From: Ignavibacteria bacterium
Lineage (GTDB): Bacteria; Bacteroidota; Ignavibacteria; UBA10030; UBA6906
Assembly: GCA_003251275.1 (NCBI GenBank)
Contig: QKGJ01000003.1
Location: forward strand, 1 to 32,444
DNA: 32,444 nucleotides
Direction of reading: 5' to 3'
Made by a program: the position numbers and the translations under genes
Part shown: positions 4,063 through 26,708 of the stretch, piece after piece
Layout: each line of letters begins with the position of its first letter
How positions within the stretch are numbered: position 1 is the stretch's first letter
Notes under the pieces: model-generated
The model's database searches: none
Told to the model about the DNA's origin: nothing
What the model saw: the letters and a program-made list of their open reading frames with translations, nothing else

Positions 4063-7000
4063 CTAGTGTTCCTGTGGTGCATGCGATTGTTCGATCACCT
4101 TCTTCACGTCCGTGCCAGTGTCTGCTTTTGCAAGGCGCTCCAGCACTTTCCATCTTTTTTGCGTGTCTTCCTGTGCGAGCGCAGAAAGCTTCTTTGCCTG
4201 TTCGGGATGACTTTTCGTAAGCATTTTGAACCGCGCTTCCATCGATGCGTATTGCTCAAACTTGATCTTTGGCTCTTTCGAATCCAGCACAAATGGATTC
4301 TTCCCCTGCCCGACCAGCGTCGGGTTGAACCGGTAGATCGGCCAGTGACCGCATTCCACTGCCGCCTTCTGGTTGCTCATTCCTTTCGTCATGTTGATGC
4401 CGTGCGCAATGCAATGGCTGTACGCGATGATCAACGACGGGCCATCATATGCCTCAGCTTCCATGAACGCACGGACCGTCTGCGTGTCGTTGTAACCCAT
4501 CGCTATCTGTGCAACATAGACATTTCCGTACGTCATGGCAATGAGTCCCAGGTCCTTCTTCGCGAGCGGCTTTCCTCCAGCAGCAAACTTTGCAACAGCT
4601 GATCGCGGTGTTGCTTTGGACATCTGTCCGCCAGTGTTGGAGTAGACTTCCGTATCGAGCACGAGGATGTTCACGTTCTTCCCGGATGCGAGCACGTGAT
4701 CGAGTCCGCCGAAGCCGATATCGTAAGCCCATCCATCGCCGCCCATGATCCAGACGCTTCTTTTCACCAGGTTGTCTGCAAGGCTGAGAAGATTCCGGGC
4801 AACAGGATCGTTCATTGGCTTGAGTTTCTTCTTAAGTTGTTCGACCCATACGCGCTGTTCATAAATACCGGCTTCATCAGATTGGTCGGCATTGAGAATC
4901 GCGCGTGCGAGCTCATCGCCTACTTGCGGAGCAAGTTGGGTTAGCATCTCCCGGGCCATTGCTGTATGCTTGTCCACAGCGAGGCGCATACCAAGACCGA
5001 ACTCCGCGTTGTCTTCAAAAAGAGAATTCGACCACGCCGGTCCGCGCCCCTCCGGATTCACCGTCCAGGGAGTGGTGGGAAGGTTTCCACCGTAAATTGA
5101 AGAGCACCCTGTTGCGTTTGCAACGATCATCCGGTCACCAAACAACTGACTGGCCAGCTTCACATACGGCGTTTCGCCGCATCCAAGACACGCGCCTGAA
5201 TACTCAAAGAGCGGCTGGAGGAACTGAGAACCTTTCACAGAATCTACCTTGACTGTGCGACGATCAATTTCGGGAAGGCTGAGGAAGTATTCGTAATAGC
5301 TCCGTTCCCGTTCTCTGAGAGGGGGCTGCGCTTCCATGTTGATCGCCTTGAGGCGAGTTTCAGATTTGTTTTTGGCCGGGCAGATGTCAACGCAGATGCC
5401 ACATCCTGTGCAATCCTCAGGGGCAACCTGCACCGTATACTTCATCCCTTTGTATTCTGCCGCCTTGTAGTCCATGGACTTGAAACCTGCAGGCGCATTC
5501 TTCAACGTTTCACCATCATACACTTTGATGCGAATTGTTGCGTGTGGACAAACGATTGCGCACTTGTTGCACTGGATACAAATGCTCTCGTCCCAGATAG
5601 GGATCTCGAGAGCAATGTTTCTTTTTTCCCATTGTGCCGTACCCGTGGGATAGGTTCCGTCGGCAGGCATGGCGCTGACGGGAAGCGCATCCCCAAAGCC
5701 CGCGATCATTCCGGCGGTCACCTTCTGCACGAACTCTGGTGCGTTTTCCGAAACAACCGGCGGCATCTCGATCTTGCTTGTCACCATTGCCGGCACTTTC
5801 ACCTCGAAGAGGTTTGCAAGAGTCTGATCGACCGCATCAAAATTCTGTTGGACGATCTTGTCTCCCTTTTTTCCGTACGTCTTTTTGATAGCATTCTTAA
5901 TTGCCTCGATTGCCTTTTCGCGTGGCAGGACACCGGAGATTGCAAAGAAGCAGGTCTGCATGATCGTGTTAATACGACCCCCCATGCCTGTCGCCTGCGC
6001 CACTTTGTAGGCATCGATCACGTATAGTTTGATCTTCTTTTTGATGATTTGTTCCTGTATATGCCGAGGCAGTTCCTCCCAGACTTTGTCTGCGCCGAAG
6101 TAGCTGTTCAGGAGGAACGTTGATCCGGGAACGGCGGTCTTAAGAACATCGAACTTCTCAAGAAAGAACCATTGATGACATGCAACAAAATTGGCCGAAT
6201 CGACGAGATAAGTGGAATGAATCGGTCGTGGACCAAAGCGGAGGTGCGATACCGTAGTGGACCCGGATTTCTTCGAGTCATAGACGAAGTACCCCTGGGC
6301 AAAGAAATCAGTATCCTCTCCAATAATCTTGATTGAGTTCTTGTTTGCGCCCACAGTGCCGTCGGCGCCGAGGCCGTAGAACATTGCACGAATCACGTCA
6401 TCCGGCTCCGTGCTGAATGCCGGGTCGAACTCCACACTCGTGTGCGTGACATCGTCGTTAATACCGACGGTGAAATGGTTCTTCGGCTTCTCCTGCTTCA
6501 TCATGTCAAAGACGCCTTTGACCATGGCAGGAGTGAATTCCTTGGAGGAAAGTCCATAGCGTCCGCCGATGATTTTCGGGAAGCCGTTCAAATGAAGCGA
6601 ACCGTCGATAAACGTCTCGGTAATCGAAGTGCTGACATCCATATAGAGCGGCTCACCTGTTGCTCCGGGTTCCTTCGTACGATCCAGGACTGCGATTGTC
6701 TTTGTGCTCGGGGGAAGCGCCTTCACGAAGTGCGAAGCCGAAAATGGCCTGAACATGTGGACCTTAAGCAGTCCGACCTTTTCTCCTTTTTTATCGAGAT
6801 GATCGACTGTCTCTTCAACAGCCTCCGCGCCGGAGCCCATAATGACGATAACGCGCTCCGCATCGGGGGCGCCTGTGTATTCGTACAACTTGTACTGCCG
6901 TCCCACTTGTTTGGCGAATCGATCCATTGCTTTCTGCATGATCGCGGGGAATGCAGCGTAATACGGGTTCACTGTTTCTCGCGCCTGAAAGAACACATCC

Positions 7001-7665
7001 GGATTTTGCGCGGTGCCGCGTACAACGGGATGATCCGGCGACAGGGCCCGGGAGCGATGTCCGCGGATCAGCTCATCATCGATCATTGCACGTATATCGT
7101 CGTCGGTCAGTTCTTCGATCTTCATTACCTCGTGTGAAGTACGGAATCCATCGAAGAAGTGAACGATCGGAACCCGCGCTTCGAGCGTTGCGGCTTGCGC
7201 TATCAATGCAAAGTCCATTACCTCTTGAACAGAGTTGGAGGCAAGCATGCCGAAACCTGTTGATCGTGCAGCCATCACGTCGCTATGATCGCCGAAGATG
7301 GAGAGAGCCTGCGCCGCAACCGAACGAGCCGACACGTGAAACACCGTTGAGGTAAGCTCACCGGCAATCTTGAACATATTAGGAATCATCAGGAGCAATC
7401 CCTGCGACGCAGTAAACGTTGTGGAGAGGGCGCCGGTCTGCAGCGCTCCGTGTATCGCTCCGGCTGCTCCGCCTTCACTTTGCATTTCCGTCACCGACGG
7501 GATGGTTCCCCAGAGATTTTTTCTTCCCTGCGACGACCATTCGTCCGCCCATTCTCCCATGTTGGAGGAGGGAGTGATGGGATAAATTGCGATGACTTCG
7601 TTGAGTTTGTGTGCGACATACGCGGCAGCTTCATTGCCGTCGATCGTGACCTTATTCCGTTTCAT
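4063..7665 (-). CDS. nifJ: Pyruvate:ferredoxin (flavodoxin) oxidoreductase, single-chain NifJ type
   Basis: About 1200 aa; TIDGNEAAAYVAHKLNEVIAIYPITPSSNMGEWAD; two ferredoxin motifs CIQCNKCAIVCPHATI and CTGCGICVDICPAKNK; TPP-domain GDGWAYDIGFGGLDHVLASG..NVLVLDTEVYSNTGGQ-like region. The 7728 ORF start is probably too long; MKRNKVTIDG starts at 7665. Confidence 0.95.
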   Translation of the reverse strand: MKRNKVTIDGNEAAAYVAHKLNEVIAIYPITPSSNMGEWADEWSSQGRKNLWGTIPSVTEMQSEGGAAGAIHGALQTGALSTTFTASQGLLLMIPNMFKIAGELTSTVFHVSARSVAAQALSIFGDHSDVMAARSTGFGMLASNSVQEVMDFALIAQAATLEARVPIVHFFDGFRTSHEVMKIEELTDDDIRAMIDDELIRGHRSRALSPDHPVVRGTAQNPDVFFQARETVNPYYAAFPAIMQKAMDRFAKQVGRQYKLYEYTGAPDAERVIVIMGSGAEAVEETVDHLDKKGEKVGLLKVHMFRPFSASHFVKALPPSTKTIAVLDRTKEPGATGEPLYMDVSTSITETFIDGSLHLNGFPKIIGGRYGLSSKEFTPAMVKGVFDMMKQEKPKNHFTVGINDDVTHTSVEFDPAFSTEPDDVIRAMFYGLGADGTVGANKNSIKIIGEDTDFFAQGYFVYDSKKSGSTTVSHLRFGPRPIHSTYLVDSANFVACHQWFFLEKFDVLKTAVPGSTFLLNSYFGADKVWEELPRHIQEQIIKKKIKLYVIDAYKVAQATGMGGRINTIMQTCFFAISGVLPREKAIEAIKNAIKKTYGKKGDKIVQQNFDAVDQTLANLFEVKVPAMVTSKIEMPPVVSENAPEFVQKVTAGMIAGFGDALPVSAMPADGTYPTGTAQWEKRNIALEIPIWDESICIQCNKCAIVCPHATIRIKVYDGETLKNAPAGFKSMDYKAAEYKGMKYTVQVAPEDCTGCGICVDICPAKNKSETRLKAINMEAQPPLRERERSYYEYFLSLPEIDRRTVKVDSVKGSQFLQPLFEYSGACLGCGETPYVKLASQLFGDRMIVANATGCSSIYGGNLPTTPWTVNPEGRGPAWSNSLFEDNAEFGLGMRLAVDKHTAMAREMLTQLAPQVGDELARAILNADQSDEAGIYEQRVWVEQLKKKLKPMNDPVARNLLSLADNLVKRSVWIMGGDGWAYDIGFGGLDHVLASGKNVNILVLDTEVYSNTGGQMSKATPRSAVAKFAAGGKPLAKKDLGLIAMTYGNVYVAQIAMGYNDTQTVRAFMEAEAYDGPSLIIAYSHCIAHGINMTKGMSNQKAAVECGHWPIYRFNPTLVGQGKNPFVLDSKEPKIKFEQYASMEARFKMLTKSHPEQAKKLSALAQEDTQKRWKVLERLAKADTGTDVKKVIEQSHAPQEH

Positions 7666-7892
7666 TGTTTTCCTTCGAGAGATGCGAATCAAGAATCTGT
7701 CCCTAGGAGATTTGCCGGGACACAGCACCGTCTTTCCAACGAAATATCATGCCACAGGGAATACCATCAAAAAGACTTGTAATTGCCCACAATCTAGAGG
7801 ATTCTGTCTGATTTAGGGTTGTTGGATTCCAAAGGATGGGAAAACAAGTTGCAGCGGTGAAAAAAGAAAGGCCAGTCGAATGTCTTGCATGA

Positions 7893-8133: not shown

Positions 8134-9513
8134 TCATGGAACCGGCTCAAAATGTGCAGTGAAGTGCCTTAGGAACTTCGGCTCGTGTGTAATCCGCATC
8201 CCTTTCGTTTCGCGCGCGTGAGCGGCGATCTCCTGGAACACTTCCACCACATAGTCCACGTGGCTCTGTGTGTAAACGCGGCGGGGAATAGCAAGCCGCA
8301 CAAGTTCCATCGGTGCAGGGATAAGCGTTCCCCTTTCGTCATATGTTCCAAACATCACCGAACCCACCTCGACACAACGAACACCGCCAATACGGTACAG
8401 CGCACAGACTAATGCCTGTCCAGGATATTGCTCAACAGGAATGTGTTTGTACAGCCCTTTTGCATCTACATAGACTGCGTGCCCCCCGATCGGCAGCATG
8501 ATGGGGATGCCGTACTCCTGAATCTTCTCGCCCAGGTATTCCGTACTGCGGATTCTGTAGCGCAGATAATCCCTGTCGAAGACCTCTTCCAATCCGACAG
8601 CGATCGCTTCCATATCGCGTCCCGCGAGTCCGCCGTATGTGGTGAATCCCTCGGTGATGATCAGGAGGTTTGTGCATGCATCCGAAAGCTCATTGTCCCG
8701 CAACGCGAGGAACCCCCCGATGTTTACGAGCCCATCTTTCTTTGCACTCATCACGCAGCCATCGGCGAGAGAGAACATCTCCTGTGCGATTTCCTTGTAT
8801 GATTTGCCTTCGAACCCTGTCTCCCGGTGATTGACAAAGTACGCGTTCTCGGCGATGCGACACGCATCGATGACAAAGAGAATCTTGTTTTCTTTGCAGA
8901 GAGCCGAAACGGCTTTCATGTTTTCCATGCTTACTGGCTGTCCGCCACCAGTGTTGTTCGTGACGGTCATGATCACCGCGCCAACGTTTTTCGCACCATG
9001 TTCTCGAATCAGTTTCTCAAGCCTGCTAATATCCATATTCCCCTTAAACGGATGGCGTACCGAAGGGTGAAGCGCTTGCTCAATCGGGCAGTCGATTGCC
9101 TTCGCGCCAGAGAATTCTATGTTGGCGCGAGTCGTATCGAAGTGCGTGTTGCTGATGAATACCTTTCCTTTGCCACCGAGGAGACTGTAAAGAATTCGTT
9201 CCGCAGCGCGTCCTTGATGTGTCGGAAGGATATGAGGATATCCGGTGAGGTCGTGAATGACGTGCTCAAGCTTCTTCCAACTGCGAGCGCCGGCATAAGA
9301 TTCATCACCCGACATCATTGCAGACCATTGGGCAGTGCTCATCGCGGAAGTGCCGCTGTCGGTGAGCAGATCAATGATCACCTGGTCGGAGGTGAGAAGA
9401 AACGGATTGTAATGAGCCTTGCGCAACCACTCCAGCCTTTGTTTCTCCGTCGACATGGTAATTGGTTCGACGGTCTTGATCTTGAACGGCTCGATGATGA
9501 TATGCTGGTGCAC
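8134..9513 (-). CDS. Tryptophanase / tyrosine phenol-lyase family beta-eliminating lyase (PLP)
   Basis: 459 aa; EPFKIKTVEPI, IDLLTDSGTSAMS, MMSGDESYAG, PTHQGRAAE, MFSLADGCVMSAKKDGLVNIGGFL (PLP Lys), GGLAGRDMEAIAVGL, VRLAIPRRVYTQSH. Substrate not resolved by reading alone. Confidence 0.92.
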   Translation of the reverse strand: MHQHIIIEPFKIKTVEPITMSTEKQRLEWLRKAHYNPFLLTSDQVIIDLLTDSGTSAMSTAQWSAMMSGDESYAGARSWKKLEHVIHDLTGYPHILPTHQGRAAERILYSLLGGKGKVFISNTHFDTTRANIEFSGAKAIDCPIEQALHPSVRHPFKGNMDISRLEKLIREHGAKNVGAVIMTVTNNTGGGQPVSMENMKAVSALCKENKILFVIDACRIAENAYFVNHRETGFEGKSYKEIAQEMFSLADGCVMSAKKDGLVNIGGFLALRDNELSDACTNLLIITEGFTTYGGLAGRDMEAIAVGLEEVFDRDYLRYRIRSTEYLGEKIQEYGIPIMLPIGGHAVYVDAKGLYKHIPVEQYPGQALVCALYRIGGVRCVEVGSVMFGTYDERGTLIPAPMELVRLAIPRRVYTQSHVDYVVEVFQEIAAHARETKGMRITHEPKFLRHFTAHFEPVP

Positions 9514-9681: not shown

Positions 9682-10215
9682 CTATTTCTTTTCTTTGCCT
9701 GAGTGCTCGATCTTCGCCCACATTTCTTTGAATTTGAATTCTTTGTGTGACGGGCTTTCGGCGTTGTGGCATTTTTCGCAACTTTTTCCTGTCATATCAC
9801 CCTCGATGAGTCCAGCAGCTTTCGCCTTTTCGAGGCTGTTAGGTTTGCTGTGAAGTACTTTATAACCAGATGCCGCGCCATGACAAACTTCGCAGCTTAC
9901 TCCCTCCTCCATCTTGTATGTTTTCTCGATGTTCTCTCCTGTTCCACCGTCAGCGACGTGGCATCTTAAGCACTCAACACTTTCATGCGGCGCGGTTTTC
10001 AGACCTCGCTCTTTTGCGACTTGCTTTGCTTTGGCGCTCTTCAGTGTCTCAAAGGCTTTGGCGTGTGCAGTTTTTTGCCAGACTGCGTAAGCAGTGCCAC
10101 CTTTTCCGGACTTATGACACGCTGCACAAAATTTTACTCCGGTGTACTTGTTCTGGGACATCGCGAGGGAAGTCAGAAGAACCACACTTAAACAAACTGC
10201 AACTGTAAAACGCAT
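9682..10215 (-). CDS. Tetraheme cytochrome c, c554-like
   Basis: 177 aa with signal peptide; CAACH, CLRCH, CEVCH, CEKCH; YTGVKFCAACH...AYAVWQKTAHAKAF resembles the cytochrome c554 family. Confidence 0.85.
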   Translation of the reverse strand: MRFTVAVCLSVVLLTSLAMSQNKYTGVKFCAACHKSGKGGTAYAVWQKTAHAKAFETLKSAKAKQVAKERGLKTAPHESVECLRCHVADGGTGENIEKTYKMEEGVSCEVCHGAASGYKVLHSKPNSLEKAKAAGLIEGDMTGKSCEKCHNAESPSHKEFKFKEMWAKIEHSGKEKK

Positions 10216-10286
10216 AATTATCCTCTTTGATTATTGGTTGTTGTTAGTTTAATTCTCGCCAGAGTTATTAAGTTCCCGTCCGTGAT

Positions 10287-11618
10287 TTATGACGATCCTG
10301 GGAGATAGCTCTCAATCCGGTTTTCAACTTCTTTCCGTCCGTGCGTACGTCCTTCTTCGATTTCCCAAACGGAAATCAGAGGGAAGAATTTCGAAAAAAT
10401 CATAAACCCCATAACAAAAACAGCTAACCCACCTGCGAAGAGTGCCCACTCGAGTACCGTTGGGACATAAATCCCGATCGGAACATCAAGACGAGGATTT
10501 GCCAAAGAAGGAACTACAATAATAAACCGCTCAAGCCACATGCCGATAACCACAGCGACGGACGCAATAAAAATTCCAGTAATCGTTCTCAGCTTCTTGA
10601 AGCTGATGATGATGACGGGGACGAGGAAATTGCAGAGAATCATTCCCCAAAAATAGAAGGCGAAAGGTCCCGTGAACTTGTAAAGAATGATATGCATCTC
10701 ATGAGGCTCTGCTCCGAAAACACCAGTCAAATATTCCGAAAATGTGAAATAAGACCAAATGAGCGACATAATCAGGAGAAGAGTGCTGAGGTACTGAAAG
10801 TGAATCTCTTTCAGATAGTTCTCGAAGTGATAGACTTTTCGGAAAGCAATCATAACAATTAACAGAGCTGCAATTCCCGAAAAGATCGCCCCCACGACGA
10901 AATAGGGACCAAAAATCGTACTATGCCAGCCTGGTTGGAGCGTCATCGAGAAAATGTATGAAATCACGGTGTGAACAGAGATCGCAATTGGGATCACCAT
11001 AACCATCAGGATGTTGATAGCACGATTTAGTACCCGTTTCTGTTTTTCTGTTCCTTGCCATCCCCATGCCATGAATGCATAAAGCCACTTGAATTTCCCG
11101 CCGCGATCACGTATCCGAGCGATATCGGGAATCATTGGAAGATAGAGATAGACAGTACTGGCCGTGAAGTAGGCAGTAATGCTTGTGACATCCCACAGCA
11201 ATGGTGACTGTAGACGACCAGCTTCGAGGAGATTCATCATACGGTCCGGTCTGCCAAGGTCAAGGATGGGATGAAGACCACCAATGGCAAGGACAATAGC
11301 CGTGATGACCTCGGCCATACGCGTAATCGGCCGCCGCCACTCTGCCTTCGAGAGCCGGAGAATTGCTGAGATGAGGGTCCCCGCATGACTAATTCCGATA
11401 AAGAACACAAAGTTCACAATGTAGAATCCCCACGTGACAGGTTGATTCATCCCTGTCATACCCAGCCCAAACCGGACTTGCATGACGTACATATACAAAG
11501 CCCAAAGAAGAATCAGACCCAGAATTCCAAGGGTCACGTAAAACCCGGTTCCTGTGTGGTAAATCGGCCGGAACAGGGTTTCATCTTTGTCGGCTAGTTC
11601 GATGTTTTCTGGTTTCAT
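10287..11618 (-). CDS. NrfD/PsrC-family polytopic membrane subunit (QrcD/ActC-like)
   Basis: 443 aa, many TM segments; YIVNFVFFIGISHAGTLISAILRL, GGLHPILDLGRPDRM. Overlaps the end of the FeS gene by 4 nt. Confidence 0.88.
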   Translation of the reverse strand: MKPENIELADKDETLFRPIYHTGTGFYVTLGILGLILLWALYMYVMQVRFGLGMTGMNQPVTWGFYIVNFVFFIGISHAGTLISAILRLSKAEWRRPITRMAEVITAIVLAIGGLHPILDLGRPDRMMNLLEAGRLQSPLLWDVTSITAYFTASTVYLYLPMIPDIARIRDRGGKFKWLYAFMAWGWQGTEKQKRVLNRAINILMVMVIPIAISVHTVISYIFSMTLQPGWHSTIFGPYFVVGAIFSGIAALLIVMIAFRKVYHFENYLKEIHFQYLSTLLLIMSLIWSYFTFSEYLTGVFGAEPHEMHIILYKFTGPFAFYFWGMILCNFLVPVIIISFKKLRTITGIFIASVAVVIGMWLERFIIVVPSLANPRLDVPIGIYVPTVLEWALFAGGLAVFVMGFMIFSKFFPLISVWEIEEGRTHGRKEVENRIESYLPGSS

Positions 11619-12301
11619 GTTTCAGTTCTGCGAGAAAGATAATAGACTTTGGGCTTCACGCCGAGGTCCTCTCCATAGCGCATCACACGGTATGACCGGG
11701 AAAGTCGATAGACCCTGCTTTCCTCGTTCTCAATATCCCCAAAAACAATGGCCTCGGCCGGACAACTTTCAGCACAAGCAGGAACATATTCCCCATCCAT
11801 GATCGGCCGATCTTCGCGGTGGGCAGTTTCCTTCACACTCATAAGCCGATGGGAACAGAAAGAACACTTTTCGACAACGCCAACCATCCGACGGGAAACG
11901 TCCGGGTTTCCAACTTCTGCGCCGTCAATCCACTTCGGATCATACCAATTGTATACTTTCGCGGTAAACGGACACGCAGCCATACAATACCGACATCCGA
12001 TGCAGCGGTGGTAGATCTGTGCGACAAGTCCCTCCGGATTTCGATAGGTGGCCCCAACCGGACAAACGAGCGTGCACGGCGGATCATCACAGTGGAAGCA
12101 GGGCTTCGGGACTCGTTTCGTAACGGTATTCGGGAACGCTCCTTCAGTGGTCGTCATCATGTCCATCCAGAACATCGCGCGGCCGCTTTGCGCCTCGGCT
12201 GGATCAGCAATCGGTACGTTGTTCTCCATCTTACACGCGACTGCACATGCATCGCACCCGGTGCACTTGTCTAAATCGATTACCATGGCCCACTTCGGCA
12301 T
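11615..12301 (-). CDS. 4Fe-4S dicluster-type electron transfer subunit (NrfC/DmsB/QrcC-like)
   Basis: 228 aa; CTGCDACAVACKMENNVP, CFHCDDPPCTLVCPVGATYRNPEGLV, CIGCRYCMAACPF, CSFC...CAESCPAEAIVFGD; cysteines for four clusters. Confidence 0.92.
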   Translation of the reverse strand: MPKWAMVIDLDKCTGCDACAVACKMENNVPIADPAEAQSGRAMFWMDMMTTTEGAFPNTVTKRVPKPCFHCDDPPCTLVCPVGATYRNPEGLVAQIYHRCIGCRYCMAACPFTAKVYNWYDPKWIDGAEVGNPDVSRRMVGVVEKCSFCSHRLMSVKETAHREDRPIMDGEYVPACAESCPAEAIVFGDIENEESRVYRLSRSYRVMRYGEDLGVKPKVYYLSRRTET

Positions 12302-12319
12302 TGTTGGAATTTCCTCCTC

Positions 12320-14779
12320 CTATGTTGCTCGAGCGATCTTTACTTTCGTTGCCTGTAGAGCTGGTTTCCCGTTCAACTGATCATATAGATTCCTCATGAT
12401 CGTATTGGGGTTTACCCCGTGTCCCTTCGCATAGCGTCCAAGGGAGGTGTGTCCGAGACCGAATGGGATGGCGACGACACTGGGCATGATTCCTTCAGTG
12501 ATCTTTGCCCGCAGCCTCAGACTTCCCACCACCGATGAGATCAGAACCCAGTCTCCATCGCTGATATTATTAATCGCAGCCGTCTCCGGATGAATCTCAG
12601 CCCACGACTCCCAATGACGATTCGCCGAATGGCCAAACAATTCTTGCATCATAGGCAGAGCTGCTCCCTGCCCGTCCCTCACCGGAAGAACGCGGAAGGT
12701 GACGAGGTGAAACAGCATGTCGGGTTCGTGCGGTATAGGTTCGTGATGTGGTAAGAAGACAGTATCTCCACGTGCTGAAATATTCAGCCGGTTCAATACA
12801 CGTTCGTAATTCTGCGCGGTGCCGCTTTCGCCTCCGCTTTGATTTGTTAGGTTATCAAGAGCCTTCTTAAGAGTCTGAGAAAAAAATTCGAATTTCTTCG
12901 AAGGCGTTTTGAAAACTACATCCCAGTTTTTTCTCTTCCGGATCGGATTCCACCATCCGCCTTGCCCGACCAAACGATCCCAGAATTCGTCAAACGATGA
13001 ATATCGACCGATTTGCCACCCGCGTTGTTGTAAGTATTGTATCCAGAGCGAGCCTGCACCTCCCGCTGCAATCGCTCCCGTTCCTGACTTATAGACCCCC
13101 TCCATTGCAAATTTCAATTCTTCTTCATAGTTGGAAAAAGGAAAGGCTTTCCCGACAACTCCTCCGACTTGTTGGGCGAGACCGATTAACACGTCGCCAA
13201 CCTGTTTGGTGTCATGGAAGGGCTGAACGACTGGATGCTGTATGCCGACATGAGCAAAGGGTATTGAATCGACGGCAGAGATTGCATCCCACCTTTCCAT
13301 GAAATGATGTTCCGGGAGAATCAGATGGGCGAATTCGCTGGTTTCACTCAGAATCGAATCAAAGCTGACAACGAGAGGAATCTTCTTAAGTGCCTCCGCA
13401 AGTTTACTCCGATTCAGTGACTCGAACAAAGGATTTCCTCCGCGGATGAACAAAACACTAAGAGGATAGGGAGTCTCCGAAAGCACGTTTTTCGTGAAGG
13501 CTTCAATTGAAAAGCGTGTGAACGGGTAGACGTCCCCTTCTGATATGCCTATCGGAGACTGCTTCAATCCATCCCGCGCCACGACATCTGATTGAACGGG
13601 CTCGAATCTGGAAAATGGAGGATCATCTACGAAGAAAATTCCACCTTCGCGTTCAAAATTACCGAGAAGGGCATTCAGGCTATGAATAGCCATTGTGGAA
13701 AACGTGCCATTTGTATTGTCAATGGCCCCTTGGTCGCCAACCACTAGTGCAGGATGAGCATTGCCCAATTCACGACCGAGTTGTAGGATAACAGGACTGG
13801 GTACACCGGTTAGTTCTTCAACTCTTTCAGGGTAATAATTCCCGAGCACCATGTTCTTGAATCCTACATGCCGAACCCCAGAACTGTCAACTCTGTCTTC
13901 AAAACCAAACGTCTTTGATCGCACGAACTCACGGTCGTACAGTTCCTCACGAATCAACACATAGGAGAGGCCGAGTGCCAGTGCTCCGTATGTACCAGGT
14001 CGAATTGGAATCCACTGGTCGGCGTTGGAAGCCGTTAGACTGTGACGAGACTCGATTTGGACATACCGGGTTTGTTGTTCCTCGTGATGGCTGTACACTT
14101 TAGTGTAGTACACGGGAGAAGAACCCTCTTCAAGGAAATTTGAGCCAAAGCTCACGATGAGCCTTGCATTGAGAAAATCATAGGCCGGCAATGTCAAGTG
14201 GCCCTGGAGAAGAGAATAGGGGGTAACCGTGTTTTGGGATGGAGCAAACTGGAAGTAGTTCGGAGATCCATAGGCCTGCATGAACCTGGCAAAATGTTGT
14301 TTCAGTAATCCGTTTTCTTCATGTCCGAGGAACGCAACCTGATGCGGCTTTCCTGCGACACGCAACTCTACAAGTCGTTCTGCGATTTGACTGAGCGCAT
14401 TTTCCCATGAGATGGATTCCCAAGTGGCGTGGTCGGGAGTGCCTTTCCTTTGCACAGGTCCTTTGAGTCGGTCCGGATGATACAAAGAATGAAGGGCATT
14501 GAGGCCAAGCGGACACATACCTCCTCTGTTGATCGGGTAAACCGGGTTCCCCTTCACTGAAACAGGAATGTCATCGATCAAGCGCACGCGGGTCCCGCAG
14601 CCTGCGGGACAGAGGCCGCAGATTGTATTTTGCCATGTCTCGATGCCGGGACCTCTTCTGGCTTGTTCGATCATCGACTGAGGAATATCGAGAACATCGT
14701 CCAGTCCACAGCCGACGAAGAGGAAACTGCCGGAGAGGCCGCCGAACAATCTCAGGAATTCACGTCGTTTAATCTCCAT
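12320..14779 (-). CDS. Molybdopterin oxidoreductase-family protein (QrcB/ActB/PsrA-like) with Tat-like leader
   Basis: 819 aa; KRREFLRLFGG leader; proximal FeS motif ICGLCPAGC...GGMCPLG; VSFGSNFLEEG, VVGDQGAIDNTNGTFSTMAIHSLNALLGNFEREGG, C-terminal MopB-binding-like VAIPFGLGHTSLGRYAKGHGVNPN. Confidence 0.88.
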   Translation of the reverse strand: MEIKRREFLRLFGGLSGSFLFVGCGLDDVLDIPQSMIEQARRGPGIETWQNTICGLCPAGCGTRVRLIDDIPVSVKGNPVYPINRGGMCPLGLNALHSLYHPDRLKGPVQRKGTPDHATWESISWENALSQIAERLVELRVAGKPHQVAFLGHEENGLLKQHFARFMQAYGSPNYFQFAPSQNTVTPYSLLQGHLTLPAYDFLNARLIVSFGSNFLEEGSSPVYYTKVYSHHEEQQTRYVQIESRHSLTASNADQWIPIRPGTYGALALGLSYVLIREELYDREFVRSKTFGFEDRVDSSGVRHVGFKNMVLGNYYPERVEELTGVPSPVILQLGRELGNAHPALVVGDQGAIDNTNGTFSTMAIHSLNALLGNFEREGGIFFVDDPPFSRFEPVQSDVVARDGLKQSPIGISEGDVYPFTRFSIEAFTKNVLSETPYPLSVLFIRGGNPLFESLNRSKLAEALKKIPLVVSFDSILSETSEFAHLILPEHHFMERWDAISAVDSIPFAHVGIQHPVVQPFHDTKQVGDVLIGLAQQVGGVVGKAFPFSNYEEELKFAMEGVYKSGTGAIAAGGAGSLWIQYLQQRGWQIGRYSSFDEFWDRLVGQGGWWNPIRKRKNWDVVFKTPSKKFEFFSQTLKKALDNLTNQSGGESGTAQNYERVLNRLNISARGDTVFLPHHEPIPHEPDMLFHLVTFRVLPVRDGQGAALPMMQELFGHSANRHWESWAEIHPETAAINNISDGDWVLISSVVGSLRLRAKITEGIMPSVVAIPFGLGHTSLGRYAKGHGVNPNTIMRNLYDQLNGKPALQATKVKIARAT

Positions 14780-14792
14780 TAGAATATCGTCC

Positions 14793-15317
14793 TCATCGAT
14801 GACACGCTAGACAGTCGTTTGTCACACCGTTCAAGCGATGGCAATCCATACAACTCTCCATCATCACAGGCATGAAAGTCGAGGTGACTGGTTGAGTAAA
14901 ATCAGGGATGTTTCCATGGCACGTGGCACATTCGATTCTGCCATCCGTCACATGCCGCTGATGCGAAAAGTACACATGATCCGGAACGCTATACACGCGC
15001 TGCCATGGAATCTCATTTCCGTCCGCAACAAACTTGAGGAGTTTTGGTTCTTCCGGAGAATCGGAAATCGGTTCGCCCGAATGGCAGCTTGTGCAGATTT
15101 CAAGCCGTGGGATGGTCGCGGACGCCGAAACAAGAACTGACTCGTGGCAGTCCACACATGTCATTCCCGCGGACTCAATATGGATTTTGTGATTATATTG
15201 AATGGGCTGGCGTAGATCGCTGTGAAGGAAAACCTTGAAGTACCCAGCGATCAGAATGATGCCACCGATGGTACCGAGCAGAACCAATTTTCTTGTGGTT
15301 GGCCGAAGCTTCGGCAT
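14793..15317 (-). CDS. Membrane-anchored pentaheme cytochrome c (QrcA/ActA-like)
   Basis: 174 aa; N-terminal TM; CVDCH, CTSCH, CATCH, CMDCH, CLACH; YNHKIHIESAGMTCVDCH and YFSHQRHVTDGRIECATCH typical of cytochrome c7/ActA-type proteins. Confidence 0.85.
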   Translation of the reverse strand: MPKLRPTTRKLVLLGTIGGIILIAGYFKVFLHSDLRQPIQYNHKIHIESAGMTCVDCHESVLVSASATIPRLEICTSCHSGEPISDSPEEPKLLKFVADGNEIPWQRVYSVPDHVYFSHQRHVTDGRIECATCHGNIPDFTQPVTSTFMPVMMESCMDCHRLNGVTNDCLACHR

Positions 15318-15347
15318 GGAATGAGACTCTCTGGTTCTTGTAAAGTG

Positions 15348-16502
15348 TTAGTCTTTGTTCCGGAGATAGCCGTAGAGGTCGCGCATTTCATTGGTGGTAA
15401 GCACCGGCCACCGTTTGTTCTGCGTAATGAGAAGATCCTCCATCTCTCCTGCATGATTCCACATCAATTGAATCATCCTGACAGGAGATGTTATTTTCTT
15501 TATGGATCCAAGATCTGGTCCTTTTCCCTTACCCCCTTTCGCGTGACAGCTGTTGCATCCTTTTTCTGAAAACACACGTTCACCCTTTGTTGGGTTTCCA
15601 GGCAGGTCCTCGAAGCCGAGGAAATAGATATAAGCAATAATATCAGCCATCTCGTTCTTTTTGAACTGCGGCCATTCAATAGACGCTCCCTGCATGTACT
15701 CAAGCATAGCCTCACCGTGGTTCCACATTGCTCCGGCAACTTCCGTGACGCCCTTCTTCAAGTCGATTTTAATGAGGCCGGCTTCAATGCGCTTTCGTTT
15801 TCCCTCCCCGACATGGCAATCGGAGCAGTGTTTTTCAGTAAAGAGAACGCGGCCGTTTTTTGGATTACCTATCGACAAACGAACTTCAACGTCGGCCGTA
15901 CTCGCTTGGCGCAAATACGACGCAATGTCGACGATATCCTGTCCCGAGAGAATGGGATAGTTCATCTTTCCTTTTCGAATCTGCTCTTGCATCGCAGGAC
16001 CGTGATTCCACATAGCCTGGACAAGATAGAGCGGAGCCGAATATTTCTGAATTTTCTTGAAATCCGGTCCGATCGTGCCTCCTTCTCCTCCATTACTATG
16101 ACATCCCATACAACCTTTGGAGGCGAGAAGGCTTTTTCCGTTTGCCACACTTCCTGGTTCGCCGAGGTATCTTAGATAATAAAGGAATCCCAGAAGGTCC
16201 AACATCTCGGCTTCCGTGAGTTTCGGTCGGTCCATTCGAAGCTGCCTGAACTTCCGGTTCATCTGTGGCGAATGGTTCCAGATAATAGTCGCCAGCTCAA
16301 TGCTGCTGCCAAAGTACTGATCACGGCTCAAATCCGGACCGGCTGTCCCTCCAAAGCCTCCCACTGCATGGCAGGCAATACATTTTTTTTCTTCGAAGGT
16401 AATACGGCCATTCAGGGGATCTGTTGGCAGTTCGATCTCTTGCGCGATCAATGTTCCAGCAGTGAGAAAAACCATGGAAAACCCGAAGACGATAATGCGC
16501 AT
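15348..16502 (-). CDS. Cytochrome c with four tandem class I-like monoheme domains
   Basis: CIACH, CMGCH, CSDCH, CNSCH, each followed by a WNHxxxM segment (IIWNHSPQM, AMWNHGPAM, AMWNHGEAM, LMWNHAGEM). ATG at 16502 with signal peptide MRIIVFGFSMVFLTAGTLIAQ. Confidence 0.88.
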   Translation of the reverse strand: MRIIVFGFSMVFLTAGTLIAQEIELPTDPLNGRITFEEKKCIACHAVGGFGGTAGPDLSRDQYFGSSIELATIIWNHSPQMNRKFRQLRMDRPKLTEAEMLDLLGFLYYLRYLGEPGSVANGKSLLASKGCMGCHSNGGEGGTIGPDFKKIQKYSAPLYLVQAMWNHGPAMQEQIRKGKMNYPILSGQDIVDIASYLRQASTADVEVRLSIGNPKNGRVLFTEKHCSDCHVGEGKRKRIEAGLIKIDLKKGVTEVAGAMWNHGEAMLEYMQGASIEWPQFKKNEMADIIAYIYFLGFEDLPGNPTKGERVFSEKGCNSCHAKGGKGKGPDLGSIKKITSPVRMIQLMWNHAGEMEDLLITQNKRWPVLTTNEMRDLYGYLRNKD

Positions 16503-16503
16503 A

Positions 16504-16776
16504 TTACTTCTCCTCTGTCGTTGAGGTGGGAGATTTTTCTCGTTGCAGACCGACAAATACATACGTCAACACACTGGCCAACGTAATGAATACAGGGATG
16601 GCGACGATACTGATACCGACTGAGGCACCAGGGGCATCATTGAGCTCAAGAGAGAGTTGGATCAGATTGACAATCCAGACGGTAATCACGCAGACAAAGA
16701 CCCAGATAAACAATACACTGAACAACTGTGCAAGGAAGACAACCTTGCTCATTGTTGAGTTGACCTGCTCGTTCAT
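16504..16776 (-). CDS. Small two-TM membrane protein of unknown function
   Basis: MNEQVNSTMSKVVFLAQLFSVLFIWVFVCVITVWIVNLIQLSLELNDAPGASVGISIVAIPVFITLASVLTYVFVGLQREKSPTSTTEEK; a GAAGG RBS-like sequence precedes ATG 16776. In-frame ORF extends to 16851. Confidence 0.7.
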   Translation of the reverse strand: MNEQVNSTMSKVVFLAQLFSVLFIWVFVCVITVWIVNLIQLSLELNDAPGASVGISIVAIPVFITLASVLTYVFVGLQREKSPTSTTEEK

Positions 16777-16968
16777 GGTTGCGCCTTCGTCCTTGGTTTT
16801 GTGGAAAACTCCAACAATCGTGCCAACTACCCAATGTACATTTCCAAACAAAGACAGAGGGCAGGCAGAGGTTGGGCAGGAGGATTTTTGGATCTCGCGG
16901 TCTCTTTCCTCGTTTTGCGATTCTTGATTCCTAATTTTGCAAAAGCGCGTGCGAAAAAATGCTGAGCT

Positions 16969-18453
16969 TCAGGATCGAGCTCGTGAAGCTTGCTGCTTCT
17001 CGATGCGCCGAATAAATGCATAGAGAGATATCGCGAGGCTCGTGATAATCAGAGAAGCGATCAGCAATCCCCAGCGCCTGAAATAGTACTGGTCGATTGC
17101 CTGCGTGGCCTCCTCGGAGACCACCGTGGATACGGCGAGACCCCGTTCCGCGACCTCGCGAAACTGGCTTTCATTGAACGAATGGACATTCGTTCGTGAT
17201 TCCAATCGAGCCTGGCGGATCTCGCGTAACTTGAATCTTGCCTCACCGACTTCCATCCCTTTTTGTTCTGCTTCTTCGACGCGTAGCACCGCATGATTTT
17301 CTGACGCCTGCAAACTGTCCACGAGTAATCGCATTGTTCGAGCGACCTCGAATCCCTTAGGAGCCTTCTCAGGAGTGTGACACCATGCGCACACCGCCCC
17401 TTTGCCTACACCTAGAAGTTTGTCTGTTGCAGCGACAACATCATGATGGCTGTGACATGTTTCGCATTCGGGAAGCTTGCGTTGATCGAAAGCCTTCTTA
17501 TGCGGGCTCGCAGAGAAAAGCTCTGCGTTGAGGGCGTGGCAAGTTCCGCACACTCTTGAAATTGATTCGACCCCTGGTGGCACGGCGCCGTGATTTCCAT
17601 GACAATCATTGCAGGCCGGCGCTCCGAGGTCTTTCTTTTCCAGTAACGCAATTCCGTGGACGCTGCGAGAGTATTTCTCAAGTTGATCGGAAGGGAGTGC
17701 ATATTTCCTCATTAGGTTCGTATTCGAATGGCAGGATCCACAGGTCTTCGGCAAAGTCGTCGCGTACACCCGTGAACGAACATCCGCTGCCGGGAGAATG
17801 TCATGGCTTCCGTGACAACTCGCACACTCAGCGACGCTTGCATCACCTTTAGCGTTTTGCTTTCCGTGCACGCTTGTCCGGTATTTGTCGAGCTGATCTA
17901 CGGGGAGGGCCGGGTTGTAATCGCGCAGATATTGGGCACTTGAATGACATTTCGCGCATGTCGCCGGAACATTCAAAGGGTGTACGGAAGAAGAGCGATT
18001 ATTTTTCGAAACGATCCCATGTGCCCCATGGCATGAAGTACACTGGGCTATTCTCTGACCTCCCTTAGTCGAGGATTCTCCATGGACACTTGATGTTAAG
18101 GAGGACATTTGATCAAGAGGTAGCAAGGAATTGTACTTTTTCACCATGACCGTTGCGCTGGAGTGACAATTTGAACAAACCGACGAGATTGCATTTCCTG
18201 ATGGAACTCCCATGAATCCCGCATTCTTGCTCATCGATTCTTCCGCATCTTCTTTTGTTGCATCGCCTCCGTGACAGCTCGCGCACGTGAGGCCATTTGC
18301 AAAATGCACGTCTCCTTTAAAGAGCGCGGCATTCTTGTCTTCTATTGCCTCATGGCACACCAGGCATTGATCCTGTGTGCTTGCAACCTGTTGTTCAAAA
18401 ACTGTGAGGAGGAAGGTAAAAAGGATAATACGACAGCTCCACATTTTTTTCAT
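16969..18453 (-). CDS. 11-heme cytochrome c with C-terminal membrane anchor
   Basis: CLVCH, CASCH, CSNCH, CTSCH, CAKCH, CASCH, CGSCH, CNDCH, CGTCH, CETCH, CAWCH; repeated SVHG modules; C-terminal [26 protein letters not shown] at 18453 overlaps the cytochrome b stop (ATGA). Confidence 0.9.
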
Positions 18454-19520
18454 GCGATGTATCCCAGGATTGTAAACAATAGAATATAGAGCACAACGAA
18501 AATCCCAACATAGTTGACCAGCCGATTCTGCTGGCCGGCGGAACTTTTGCGGTCCCAAAAAGGAACGATCATCCATAAGAGACCGGCGAAACCAAACAAC
18601 AGAACCCCCAGGACTTCGCCGTCAATAAAGAAAACTTGAGCGGGGATATATTTGAGGGTTTGAAACATGAACAGGAAATACCATTCCGGCTTTATACCGA
18701 CGGGAGCTGAGGCAAAAAGGTCCGCCTTTTGTCCCAATTCCCAGGGAAAAAGAACCGCCAACACCGCCAGGACATTCAGAATCAGAAGCCATAAGAGAAG
18801 ATCCCGGAGCAGAAAATTGGGGAAGAACGGCATGGTGCGTTGAGACCCGTCGGGCGGGGAGTCTTCAAATTCGATCGGCTCGCTCATTCCTTGCCGCTGC
18901 ACGAGGAGAAGATGAATGCTAAGGAACAAGACAAAAAGCCCGGGGAATATTGCAACGTGAAACCCGAACATCCTCGAAAGAGTGGCCCCCGTAACATCTT
19001 CTCCCCCCCTCATCAAGATCATGATCGGTTTTCCGATTACTGGGATGTCTGTTCCGACCTTAGTGGCAAAAAAAGCCAACTCGTTCCAGGGGAGGAGATA
19101 GCCGCTGAAGCCGAACCCCATACCGAGAAATAGCATAAACATCCCTGTCAGCCAGGTGATTTCACGGGGTTTGCGATAAGCTTTGGTAAAATAGACGCTG
19201 AACATGTGAATAACAGCCGCACCAACGAACAGATTTGCTGCCCAGCTATGAATTGACCGGATCAGCCAACCAAATTCCACCTTTGACATGATAAACTGAA
19301 TACTCTCAAACGCAAGTTCCTCGCTTCCCTTATAGTAGAGAAGTAGTAGAATACCGGTGACGACTTGGATAATGAAGAGGAAGAGGGAGACTCCTCCGAA
19401 ATAATACCATATGGAGTGTTCATGAATGGGAACATATTTCTTTCCCATGAATTCAACCAGGTCACGGAGATGAACCCGGTCATCAATCCACTTGTAGAGA
19501 GTATTGATTCTGTTTTTCAT
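18450..19520 (-). CDS. Cytochrome b of a bc/b6f-type complex (fused N- and C-terminal parts)
   Basis: 356 aa; [58 protein letters not shown] (H-X14-H), [17 protein letters not shown] (PEWY). Confidence 0.95.
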
Positions 19521-19972
19521 ACGTTTTTCGAGATTATGACATCATCATTTTGAACCATCACACGGAATTCTTCAAGAGGACGGGGGGGTGGGCCTGAGAT
19601 GTTCCGGCCGTTTAGATCATACTTCCCGTTGTGGCATGCGCACCAAATGACTTCCATGTCTGACCGGAACTGAACTGTGCAGTCGAGATGAGTGCAGGTA
19701 GCTGAAAATGCCCGAAGCTCACCGTCGGCTTTCCGCACCAAAATAACTGGCTTTGTTCCAAACTTCACGATTTGCCCACTATCTTTTGGGATGTCCACAA
19801 TCTTCCCAACTTTTACACTACTTACCTCCACCTCCGCCTGTTTTGGTGGCTTCAGGTAGGCGATAAGCGGATATACTACCGAAACCACCCACGCAAGGAG
19901 CGTTCCCCCGAGAGCATACTTGAGGAAGTCTCTTTTCCCTTGATCATTACCGGTTGCTACGGTGTCATTCAT
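19517..19972 (-). CDS. Rieske [2Fe-2S] protein of a bc/b6f-type complex
   Basis: 151 aa; N-terminal TM; CTHLDC...[23 protein letters not shown]. Overlaps cytochrome b start by 4 nt. Confidence 0.93.
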
Positions 19973-19984
19973 TGAAACACTCAG

Positions 19985-21478
19985 CTATTGTGAATTATGA
20001 CAGTCACTACAGTTCATTTCTTTCCATGAATCACCAATATCGACAGGGTGTTGGTAGGCGACGCCGCCCAGTGATATACGAAGCGAATCATTTTCAAAAT
20101 GTTGTGCCAGGATGGTATGGCATGTGTTGCAGTCCCTCGAGAGAACCTTGCCGTCGTCGCTCACATGTTTTCCATCGTGGCAGCGGAAGCAACCGGGATA
20201 ATACATATGCCCGATGTTGTCGGGAAATTTTTTCCAGCTGACCTTCATTTCGGGGAAGAAATTCCGGCTGTAGATTCGTTGCACGTTTGTCACCACGCTA
20301 TCGATGGCAATGGGACGAGAAGACGCGACATCGGGATAGGTTGATTCGTAATAATCCTTGATGAACAGCCGAATGCTGTCCAGACCTCCCTGTTTTGTCG
20401 AGTAGTCTGTATTCAATGCCTGCACACTCACGCTTTTCACGTCGGGGAGAGTCGGATCTATCCAGCCTAAAGCCATGACATGATTGACCGAAGGTGCTGG
20501 GGGATTATAGATGTGGGATGGTCGGTTATGGCAATCGAGACAATCCATGCGACGGGTGAAAGACTTTTTGAGCGAGTCTTCAGGGATATCGTTTTCGGTA
20601 CTGCGATAAATCGTTTCGACCCCGTCGGGAGTTCTTGAGCTCACCCACGGAATAACCTGGCGTCGTGTATCGACCGCAATGTACTTGACCTCGTGAGCGA
20701 TATTCATATGCCAGTGGATGCCGGACGTGGGCCCTGCTTCAACATTGCCCCCGCCAATTTTCATCAACAGATCTAATTCCCACTTGGTATTGCCTTCATC
20801 TGAGAGAAAATACTTGTTGGTGTGAAGTTTTTCGTTGAAAAAATGCTTTGGCCAATGGCACTGCTCGCACGTTTCCTGCGCCGGACGGAGGTTCTCAATC
20901 GGCGTCGGAATTGGTCGAGGGTATTTGTCAAAGAGAACGGCATACACCTGATACGAGCCGGAGATCTTTGAGCGCACAAACCAATCCGCTCCCGAACCAA
21001 TGTGGCACTGCACGCAGCCAACACGTGCATGAGGGGAAAATTGATATGCGGTAAACTCGGGTTCCATGACGGTGTGACACGTCTCGCCACAGAATGTATC
21101 GGAATCGGTGGCCTCGTAGGCCTTGAAGCTTCCAAACGCGGAGAGCAGCAACAATAGTATCGTTCCTCCACCGAACAAAACGGCTGCGCGACGATGCTTG
21201 GGATTGTTCAGATCCACCTTCGGTAGATGGAGACCATGGGGCTTTCCTGCTCGTTCCCGGCGGTGTTCCCGCATGATACCGAGGACGAGAACAATGAGCC
21301 CGGCAATCATAATCGCAGGTAAGATGACAAACGCGATAATTCCCATATACGGCTTTGGGCTTGCTGAAACAGACTCCAGGAGAACGAGAAAGAGAATAAG
21401 CCCGAAGCTGATGGATGCAATGGCAGTACCAATGAGCGTTACGAGGTTGTAAAACGAACTCGGAAAAACCTTCTTCAT
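19985..21478 (-). CDS. Heptaheme NapC/NirT-like membrane cytochrome (ImcH-like architecture)
   Basis: 497 aa; three N-terminal TM segments; FCGETCHTVMEPEFTAYQFSPHARVGCVQCH, CEQCH, CLDCH, CFRCH, CNTCH, CSDCH (one CX3CH plus six CXXCH). Confidence 0.87.
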   Translation of the reverse strand: MKKVFPSSFYNLVTLIGTAIASISFGLILFLVLLESVSASPKPYMGIIAFVILPAIMIAGLIVLVLGIMREHRRERAGKPHGLHLPKVDLNNPKHRRAAVLFGGGTILLLLLSAFGSFKAYEATDSDTFCGETCHTVMEPEFTAYQFSPHARVGCVQCHIGSGADWFVRSKISGSYQVYAVLFDKYPRPIPTPIENLRPAQETCEQCHWPKHFFNEKLHTNKYFLSDEGNTKWELDLLMKIGGGNVEAGPTSGIHWHMNIAHEVKYIAVDTRRQVIPWVSSRTPDGVETIYRSTENDIPEDSLKKSFTRRMDCLDCHNRPSHIYNPPAPSVNHVMALGWIDPTLPDVKSVSVQALNTDYSTKQGGLDSIRLFIKDYYESTYPDVASSRPIAIDSVVTNVQRIYSRNFFPEMKVSWKKFPDNIGHMYYPGCFRCHDGKHVSDDGKVLSRDCNTCHTILAQHFENDSLRISLGGVAYQHPVDIGDSWKEMNCSDCHNSQ

Positions 21479-21526
21479 GAAAATCCTTTGATATTTGCTA
21501 GCCCGTGAATTTTGCCCCGCATCGAT

Positions 21527-22405
21527 TTATCGATACGCAAAAAGCATTGCATAAATAATCGCCAGAACAATGCTGAATCCCAGCGTCAAGGCCGTCCAGC
21601 CAAAAGTGCGAACAGCTCGAATTACAATGGGAGGATATGGCTCGACAAGATACTTCTCCAGTTCACCGCTTGCAACAAGCGCTTCATACTCTTTTGGTTT
21701 GTCTTCCCTAAATTCTTCAACGGACATCCTTCCGGTAAAGACAACGATGTCCATGGGGAATTTCTCGGGACGTAAGTGGGTGTTGAAAAAATGGACAGTG
21801 AAGATGAACCCGGTCGCGAGCAGAGCCTCATCACTATGGATGATCGTGGCAACATTGATTGCCCACCCCGGGAAAACCCTTGTGAACAATTCGGGGAACC
21901 ACAACATCATTCCTGTTGATCCGATGACCGCGATTCCCCAGAATACCGCAAAGTAATCAAATTTTTCCCAGTAAGTCCACCTCCCGTATTTGGGGCGCTC
22001 TCCTTTTCCAACAAACCACTTGATGGAATCTCTCAAGTCGCGCAAATCGCTTTTGTTGAGCAGCATCGTGTGTTTTCCAAAGAGGAGGGCGCGCCACGAG
22101 AGAAACTCTTTTCGTTTCATCCTCACCAGGTCGATAATATGGACGATAAAAACCCCGATCATGACGATTGCGGCTAGCCGGTGGATGTATCCGGCGGATT
22201 CAAAACCACCGAAGAGCCGTGAGAGGAATGAAGCCCAACCGGTGTAGGCGAACTTCAATGACATACCGGTGAGTGCAAGGCTAATGAAGCTGACGATCAT
22301 GAGGGCATGAAGCGCCCGATTCAATCGAGAGAATCTCTGGAACTGTTTTTTTATGCCAGCGTGTCCGTTGACCCTTTTTGATTGGTTCGTCGTTTCCTTA
22401 CTCAT
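21527..22405 (-). CDS. Cytochrome b561 / FdnI-HydC-like di-heme b membrane protein
   Basis: MSKETTNQSKRVNGHAGIKKQFQRFSRLNRALHALMIVSFISLALTGMSLKF... IHRLAAIVMIGVFIVHIIDL, WTYWEKFDYFAVFWGIAVIGSTGMMLWF, IIHSDEALLATGFIFTVHFFNTHLRPEKFPMD. ATG 22405 overlaps the upstream stop at 22398. Confidence 0.88.
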   Translation of the reverse strand: MSKETTNQSKRVNGHAGIKKQFQRFSRLNRALHALMIVSFISLALTGMSLKFAYTGWASFLSRLFGGFESAGYIHRLAAIVMIGVFIVHIIDLVRMKRKEFLSWRALLFGKHTMLLNKSDLRDLRDSIKWFVGKGERPKYGRWTYWEKFDYFAVFWGIAVIGSTGMMLWFPELFTRVFPGWAINVATIIHSDEALLATGFIFTVHFFNTHLRPEKFPMDIVVFTGRMSVEEFREDKPKEYEALVASGELEKYLVEPYPPIVIRAVRTFGWTALTLGFSIVLAIIYAMLFAYR

Positions 22406-26554: not shown

Positions 26555-26708
26555 CGGTCTTCTTTGGTCATACAACTCACTTACCTCCGGTCAATCGCCG
26601 TACCATAAGAGAACAACTGATTTCACCACGAAAACAGGGACTTTCGCACCACTTTTTCTCATATCTGAGATGGTGATTGCCTGCGTTATCATGCGTAGGA
26701 AGCTGGTT

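Follow-up and report, generated by a model that had tools for sequence, protein, structure and literature searches.

In the window, by which the whole analysed stretch of 32,444 nucleotides is meant, the product of a set of minus-strand genes is rather probably a variant of alternative complex III (ACIII) that lacks molybdenum, has an ActC-type NrfD subunit and would most likely oxidise quinol and pass the electrons on to multihaem cytochromes of the periplasm. That the complex is Mo-free and serves electron transfer is well supported by the sequence, from which the identities of the subunits, the loss of the Mo-ligand cysteine and of two other pocket residues, the kinship with ActC, the channel residues and the gene neighbourhood can be read directly.

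The locus centres on four genes (10287-15317, all on the minus strand, with intergenic gaps of 13, 18 and -4 bp). They encode a pentaheme c-type cytochrome resembling ActA and QrcA (14793-15317; five CXXCH motifs, N-terminal membrane anchor, Pfam Cytochrome_C7), a MopB-family subunit resembling ActB1 and QrcB (12320-14779; 819 residues, Tat-type RR N-terminus, Pfam Molybdopterin, Molydop_binding and Fe4S4), a 4x[4Fe-4S] ferredoxin subunit of the ActB2/QrcC/PsrB kind (11615-12301; Fer4, four 4-Cys motifs, 16 Cys) and an NrfD-family integral membrane quinone subunit (10287-11618; Pfam NrfD), assigned to the ActC type by its PDB matches, channel residues and trees. This gene set and the motifs quoted for it had been correctly described in the first-pass annotation, as judged from open reading frames, motifs and Pfam. 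The gene order, which had been likened to QrcABCD, does match; however, it is equally that of ActA-B1-B2-C.

The functional unit extends beyond these four genes, which belong to a run on the minus strand (9682-26575) containing 62 CXXCH motifs in total. The run begins with a 13-heme/b561 fusion, a 19-heme cytochrome and a b561-type protein (21527-26575), genes that are present in only some relatives. It continues with a NapC/NrfH-like hexaheme cytochrome (19985-21478; PF03264, six CXXCH), a Rieske iron-sulfur protein (19517-19972; PF00355), the cytochrome b of a Rieske/cytochrome b complex (18450-19520; PF00033/PF00032, PEWY motif within KPEWYF), an 11-heme c-type cytochrome (16969-18576), a small hydrophobic protein of 90 residues with two likely helices (16504-16776) and, in an ActE-like position, a tetraheme cytochrome with four class-I cytochrome c domains (15348-16562; four CXXCH, PF00034). 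The four genes named above follow, and a cytochrome c554-like tetraheme cytochrome (9682-10215; PF13435) comes after NrfD. The start of the 11-heme reading frame overlaps the cytochrome b gene, and its true start is probably located downstream, as is probably also the case for the tetraheme cytochrome. In the upstream part (22398-26575), the 13-heme cytochrome and a b561-type membrane domain form one fused protein, accompanied by the 19-heme cytochrome, with the separate b561-type protein behind them; the 13-heme/b561 and 19-heme genes are common to only some relatives (L048, L050, L093 in part). Downstream of the module, a tryptophanase-type beta-eliminating lyase (8134-9513) and a 1221-residue pyruvate:ferredoxin/flavodoxin oxidoreductase (4063-7728) were observed.

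In the MopB subunit of the window, the proximal iron-sulfur motif is kept, as had been noticed earlier (CGLCPAGC...MCPLG, i.e. C-x2-C-x3-C-x27-C), and all four cysteines of this FeS0 site are present in 14/14 members of the module family, 9/11 QrcB and 12/12 ActB. QrcB has been described as devoid of redox cofactor, yet most curated QrcB retain these cysteines; they are gone in two derived sequences (L116, L121), and the remaining ones retain all four.

The molybdenum site was compared in an alignment of 14 module-family MopB from several phyla, 11 QrcB (the sequences above the NCBIfam cut-off), 12 ActB, 13 ArrA-type and 19 PsrA-type sequences. The first-pass annotation had read no cysteine in the segment where the Mo ligand is expected, GSPNYFQFAPSQNTVTPYSLLQG, and the alignment bears this out. 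It is aligned to the segments that bear the Cys in ArrA (SSVCAEAHK) and PsrA (SLCTAP), and the ligand Cys of the PDB ArrA and PsrA falls beside a gap next to APSQN of the window protein. A Mo-ligand Cys in register was found in 0/14 module-family members, 0/11 QrcB and 1/12 ActB, against 12/13 ArrA-type and 19/19 PsrA-type sequences (31/32 together). The ActB tallied as an exception (L038) is a divergent protein of the window's own genome, whose Cys (EAISCSAI) is in register with that of PsrA. The cysteines of L046 (YQCSS) and of QrcB L118 (WDCY) were rejected as Mo ligands, both being out of register. Inside the module family the ligand segment varies (APSQN, ASSKN, SSLPN, SKDSN), and on the sequences aligned the loss of the Mo ligand is a family-wide trait, not the accident of a single sequence.

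Two further pocket positions are changed. The Arg or Lys that bridges FeS0 and the pterin occurs in 32/32 ArrA/PsrA-type sequences and 11/12 ActB, but in 0/14 module-family members and 0/11 QrcB, the CPRG motif having become CPLG in the window. The Asp of PGTD, present in 32/32 ArrA/PsrA-type sequences, is found in 0/14 module-family members (Tyr in 13/14; PGTY in the window). Alignment to QrcB, ActB and PsrA, proposed in a structure-based form with the first reading, exposed the loss of the Cys, the R/K and the Asp, but the window MopB also retains 70% of the positions that ArrA and PsrA have in common, including GLGH...GRYA. ArrA is its best PDB match as well as the nearest fold of its AF2 model (6cz7, TM 0.77; pLDDT 82). 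Since the top Foldseek matches of this model were Mo/W enzymes only, the comparison demonstrates the fold and not the function. Low confidence in two loops (698-722 and 775-785) was not taken to indicate an empty pterin pocket, the ArrA control on the same sequences being equally low (724-747 and 802-813). Given the fold, the shared positions and the motifs that are retained, some pterin binding by MopB may persist. ArrAB and PsrABC resemble the module in the fold and the general sequence of both the large subunit and the FeS subunit, and differ from it in keeping the Mo-ligand Cys, CPRG and PGTD.

In a MopB tree of 26 sequences, the groups without Mo ligand are all located on one side of a branch supported at 99/98, with ArrA and PsrA on the other side. 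The module family stands beside QrcB (84/87), and its grouping with ActB stays unrejected (p 0.197). A NarJ/TorD-type chaperone gene (PF02613), a further point of difference, was present at 4/4 ArrA-type loci checked, and none was recognised beside the module in a non-exhaustive look at the module loci. Because arsenite oxidase holds molybdenum without any ligand from the protein, loss of the Cys is in itself no proof that the metal is absent. Taken together, however, the Cys, R/K and Asp losses, the tree and the chaperone pattern make the loss of Mo likely, if unproven, and the protein would then be in a Mo-free state. The earlier suggestion of an electron-transfer complex rather than a reductase is in agreement with the three changed pocket positions and with the 99/98 branch.

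For the NrfD subunit, the top four PDB matches were the ActC chains of four ACIII structures (245-252 bits; best match 6f0k_C, 252 bits). A phylogeny of this subunit had been called for in the first-pass annotation, and its outcome was contrary to the Qrc assignment made there: the module family joined ActC/ActF with 100/100 support and a grouping with QrcD was rejected (p-AU 0.00013). In addition, QrcD genes from authentic qrc loci gave no BLAST match to the window NrfD at 1e-3. When the published ActC residues (PMC8076601) were transferred through a phmmer alignment, 13/13 N-side and 5/6 P-side channel residues proved to be conserved. At the quinone site, S164 and D169 are kept and two of the four residues are changed (H139 to Asp, D253 to Ile). 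The relation to ACIII, which had been mentioned beside Qrc, was therefore the better half of the first wording.

The best PDB match of the pentaheme cytochrome was ActA of ACIII (95 bits), and characterised ActA is a pentahaem protein, whereas QrcA is a hexahaem one (PMC8076601). The FeS subunit was best matched by the C-terminal domain of ActB. At its quinone-proximal site (FeS1) it has CIGCRYC, with CIGC as in QrcC where ActB has CIGT; a [4Fe-4S] cluster is predicted on this basis, as opposed to the [3Fe-4S] cluster of ACIII. With four cysteines at FeS1 and both quinone-site replacements, the complex may deviate from ACIII in its redox tuning and direction. In the tetraheme protein, an invariant H...M pair lies downstream in each of the four domains in 14/14 sequences, which is consistent with Met-ligated haems of relatively high potential. 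The small membrane protein, for which Pfam gave no convincing match, is 38-70% identical across 10 loci and is a conserved, family-specific accessory subunit.

The module shares with the ACIII of Rhodothermus marinus (6f0k) a pentaheme ActA, a Mo-free MopB domain and an FeS domain, and the N-side channel residues of its NrfD are identical to those of R. marinus ActC. The two differ in that R. marinus ActB is fused and carries CIGT at FeS1, whereas B1 and B2 are separate genes in the module; domain B1 of R. marinus is without cofactor (PMC5928083), whereas the module MopB retains the FeS0 cysteines. Canonical ACIII, a quinol:cytochrome c oxidoreductase, includes ActD, ActF and a monohaem ActE. 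The module is without all three and has the tetraheme cytochrome in place of monohaem ActE, together with the conserved small membrane protein and altered quinone-site residues. In the Ignavibacterial module loci, neither ActF (a second NrfD) nor monohaem ActE was found, and no ActD (PF11821) was found beside the module. ActD is absent from 6/11 genomes carrying the module, and the only copy of the window's genome sits in a separate canonical act operon on contig C174 (that of L038; ActA, fused ActB, ActC, ActD, ActE and ActF), which adjoins nar-like nitrate reductase genes and a moaA-like gene. On this evidence the module does not belong to a canonical ACIII. A mosaic complex combining a Qrc MopB with an ACIII NrfD is not claimed, as the grouping of MopB with ActB was not rejected.

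Among published cases, compared by description only, an ACIII-like cluster of the MBNT15 bacterium SHF-111 (cluster 4) comes closest. There, ActABCD are accompanied by an ActE-like protein with four hemes, not one, extra FeS/NrfD modules are found nearby, and the authors discuss the cluster under iron reduction (PMC9386147). They name ActD, whereas the module loci have no adjoining PF11821 ActD, and they mention no Rieske/cytochrome b genes.

The family has a patchy distribution. Full-length members were found in 4/60 sampled near relatives, the window's genome included, and in 2/297 sampled genomes across the phylum, one of them being the window's own. That genome carries a paralogous module on another contig (L034, G000:C133; MopB about 67% identical), whose cluster runs off the contig end, so that two paralogous operons are present in one genome. 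In a genome scan, close MopB relatives (55-77% identity) came from MAGs of Ignavibacteria and Bacteroidetes; a Deferribacteres MAG (38%) and one of Nitrospirae (32%) supplied more distant ones. The core of pentaheme, MopB, FeS, NrfD, small membrane protein and tetraheme genes is also present in the Deferribacteres MAG and largely in the Nitrospirae MAG. The Nitrospirae locus carries Rieske and cytochrome b genes as well, and at the Deferribacteres locus none were seen.

In the window and in ten further loci (L034, L046-L050, L052, L053, L086, L093), cytochrome b adjoins the 11-heme gene, and in those ten loci the Rieske gene lies upstream of it wherever the contig continues. A NapC-like gene is found in most of the ten, L034 having another gene at that place; in L051 the genes are ordered differently and the upstream side is cut off. 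The c554-like gene after NrfD is conserved across the Ignavibacterial loci. In the open-licence papers searched, no description of Rieske, NrfD and multihaem clusters in Ignavibacteria was found. In L047 (2106-4820), the NapC-like and Rieske genes are separated by an octaheme cytochrome and a second FeS/NrfD pair. Immediately downstream of the module, L049 (10346-12905) and L086 (15269-19978) show a possible outer-membrane barrel gene, with a weak Pfam match in L049, and cytochromes with 14 and 5 hemes; these genes are suggestive of an extracellular electron route. Outside the family, ACIII genes often adjoin cytochrome oxidase genes, and a related pentaheme-MopB-FeS set does so in a Syntrophaceae MAG. 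A separate group of Mo-ligand-less MopB (L110, L111/L140, L113/L139; Syntrophaceae and a Thermodesulfobacteriota MAG) keeps a bridging Lys (CPKG); L139 and L140 adjoin a DsrOP-like pair, and L138 adjoins cytochrome oxidase genes.

We infer that the subunits assemble into one complex, most likely a quinol:multihaem-cytochrome oxidoreductase. The ActC-type NrfD would bind quinone on the periplasmic side and provide a proton half-channel from the cytoplasm, which would allow proton translocation. Electrons would be exchanged between the quinone and the FeS subunit and would move on via the pentaheme cytochrome to the tetraheme protein and the operon's other multihaem proteins, which are the presumed acceptors. 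MopB would serve as a scaffold holding the FeS and haem proteins, with the FeS0 cluster only and no Mo active site. In the direction that we favour, the module would oxidise quinol and reduce periplasmic multihaem cytochromes, side by side with the Rieske/cytochrome b complex that its operon also encodes. It is also conceivable, although quite unlikely, that in Ignavibacteria both complexes form a single functional unit, perhaps a supercomplex, sharing multihaem proteins; one would oxidise quinol and the other could re-reduce quinone, in a reversible two-site loop for electron exchange with the outside.

The main competing reading is a menaquinone reductase of the Qrc kind, in which low-potential periplasmic cytochromes would feed the pentaheme cytochrome and then menaquinone. 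As in QrcABCD, which reduces menaquinone with electrons supplied by Type I cytochrome c3, the cytoplasm would provide the protons. The QrcABCD complex of Desulfovibrio vulgaris has the same four-gene order, a MopB lacking both the Mo ligand and the bridging R/K, and a separate FeS subunit carrying CIGC; among NCBIfam models, QrcB and QrcC match the window MopB and FeS proteins best, and the MopB tree weakly favours QrcB as sister. Nevertheless, the four window subunits scored 102, 298, 271 and 37 bits against the QrcA, QrcB, QrcC and QrcD models, all below the cut-offs of 180, 440, 400 and 570, whereas genuine QrcB and QrcD controls reached 970 and 750 bits. QrcD belongs to another NrfD branch. 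Its residues D70 and Y110 are essential by mutation and form part of the proton path with Y150, S138 being at the quinone site (PMC13059093). According to a mapping read from the alignment and numbered via a QrcD with a constant offset of eight, of the residues probed by mutation D120, S138, Y150 and R358 are matched in the window NrfD, but D70 and Y110 are replaced by Phe and Leu. Qrc has a hexahaem QrcA and is without the tetraheme, the small membrane protein and the Rieske/b partners, while the module is regularly accompanied by a class-I tetraheme cytochrome with conserved Met and by a Rieske/b complex. Membership of Qrc, as first assigned, is rejected on the family cut-offs, the NrfD tree and the QrcD residues, and a Qrc-like function is unlikely.

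A working Mo/W enzyme without protein ligand, acting like arsenite oxidase as a periplasmic reductase or oxidase, would account for the retained MopB fold, C-terminal pterin-domain motifs and intact FeS0 motif, in a genome that probably makes the Mo cofactor (judging by eye from the moaA-like and nar-like genes on C174). This is very unlikely in view of the three lost pocket residues, the unconserved ligand segment, the lack of a recognised chaperone gene and the position of the family within the Mo-ligand-less clade alongside QrcB and ActB. Finally, the heme-rich gene run and, in some relatives, neighbouring genes for multihaem and possible outer-membrane proteins could point to extracellular electron uptake, for example Fe(II) oxidation, with the Rieske/b or NrfD complex reversed to reduce quinone. 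We regard this as highly improbable: no gene for a known iron oxidase was recognised beside the module, and the sequence fixes no direction. Oxidation of quinol by a Mo-free ACIII variant remains the reading that we prefer.

These results indicate that complexes with a Mo-ligand-less MopB span more than Qrc and canonical ACIII. A third architecture is present in several phyla, with an ActC-type subunit and FeS0 cysteines and without ActD or ActF. As these cysteines are also found in most QrcB and in all sampled ActB, the characterised proteins, with their 'no cofactor' state, may not be representative. Whether NrfD complexes work as quinol oxidases or as quinone reductases is still debated, and a module so regularly accompanied by a Rieske/cytochrome b complex offers a defined system in which the direction of such a complex can be tested.
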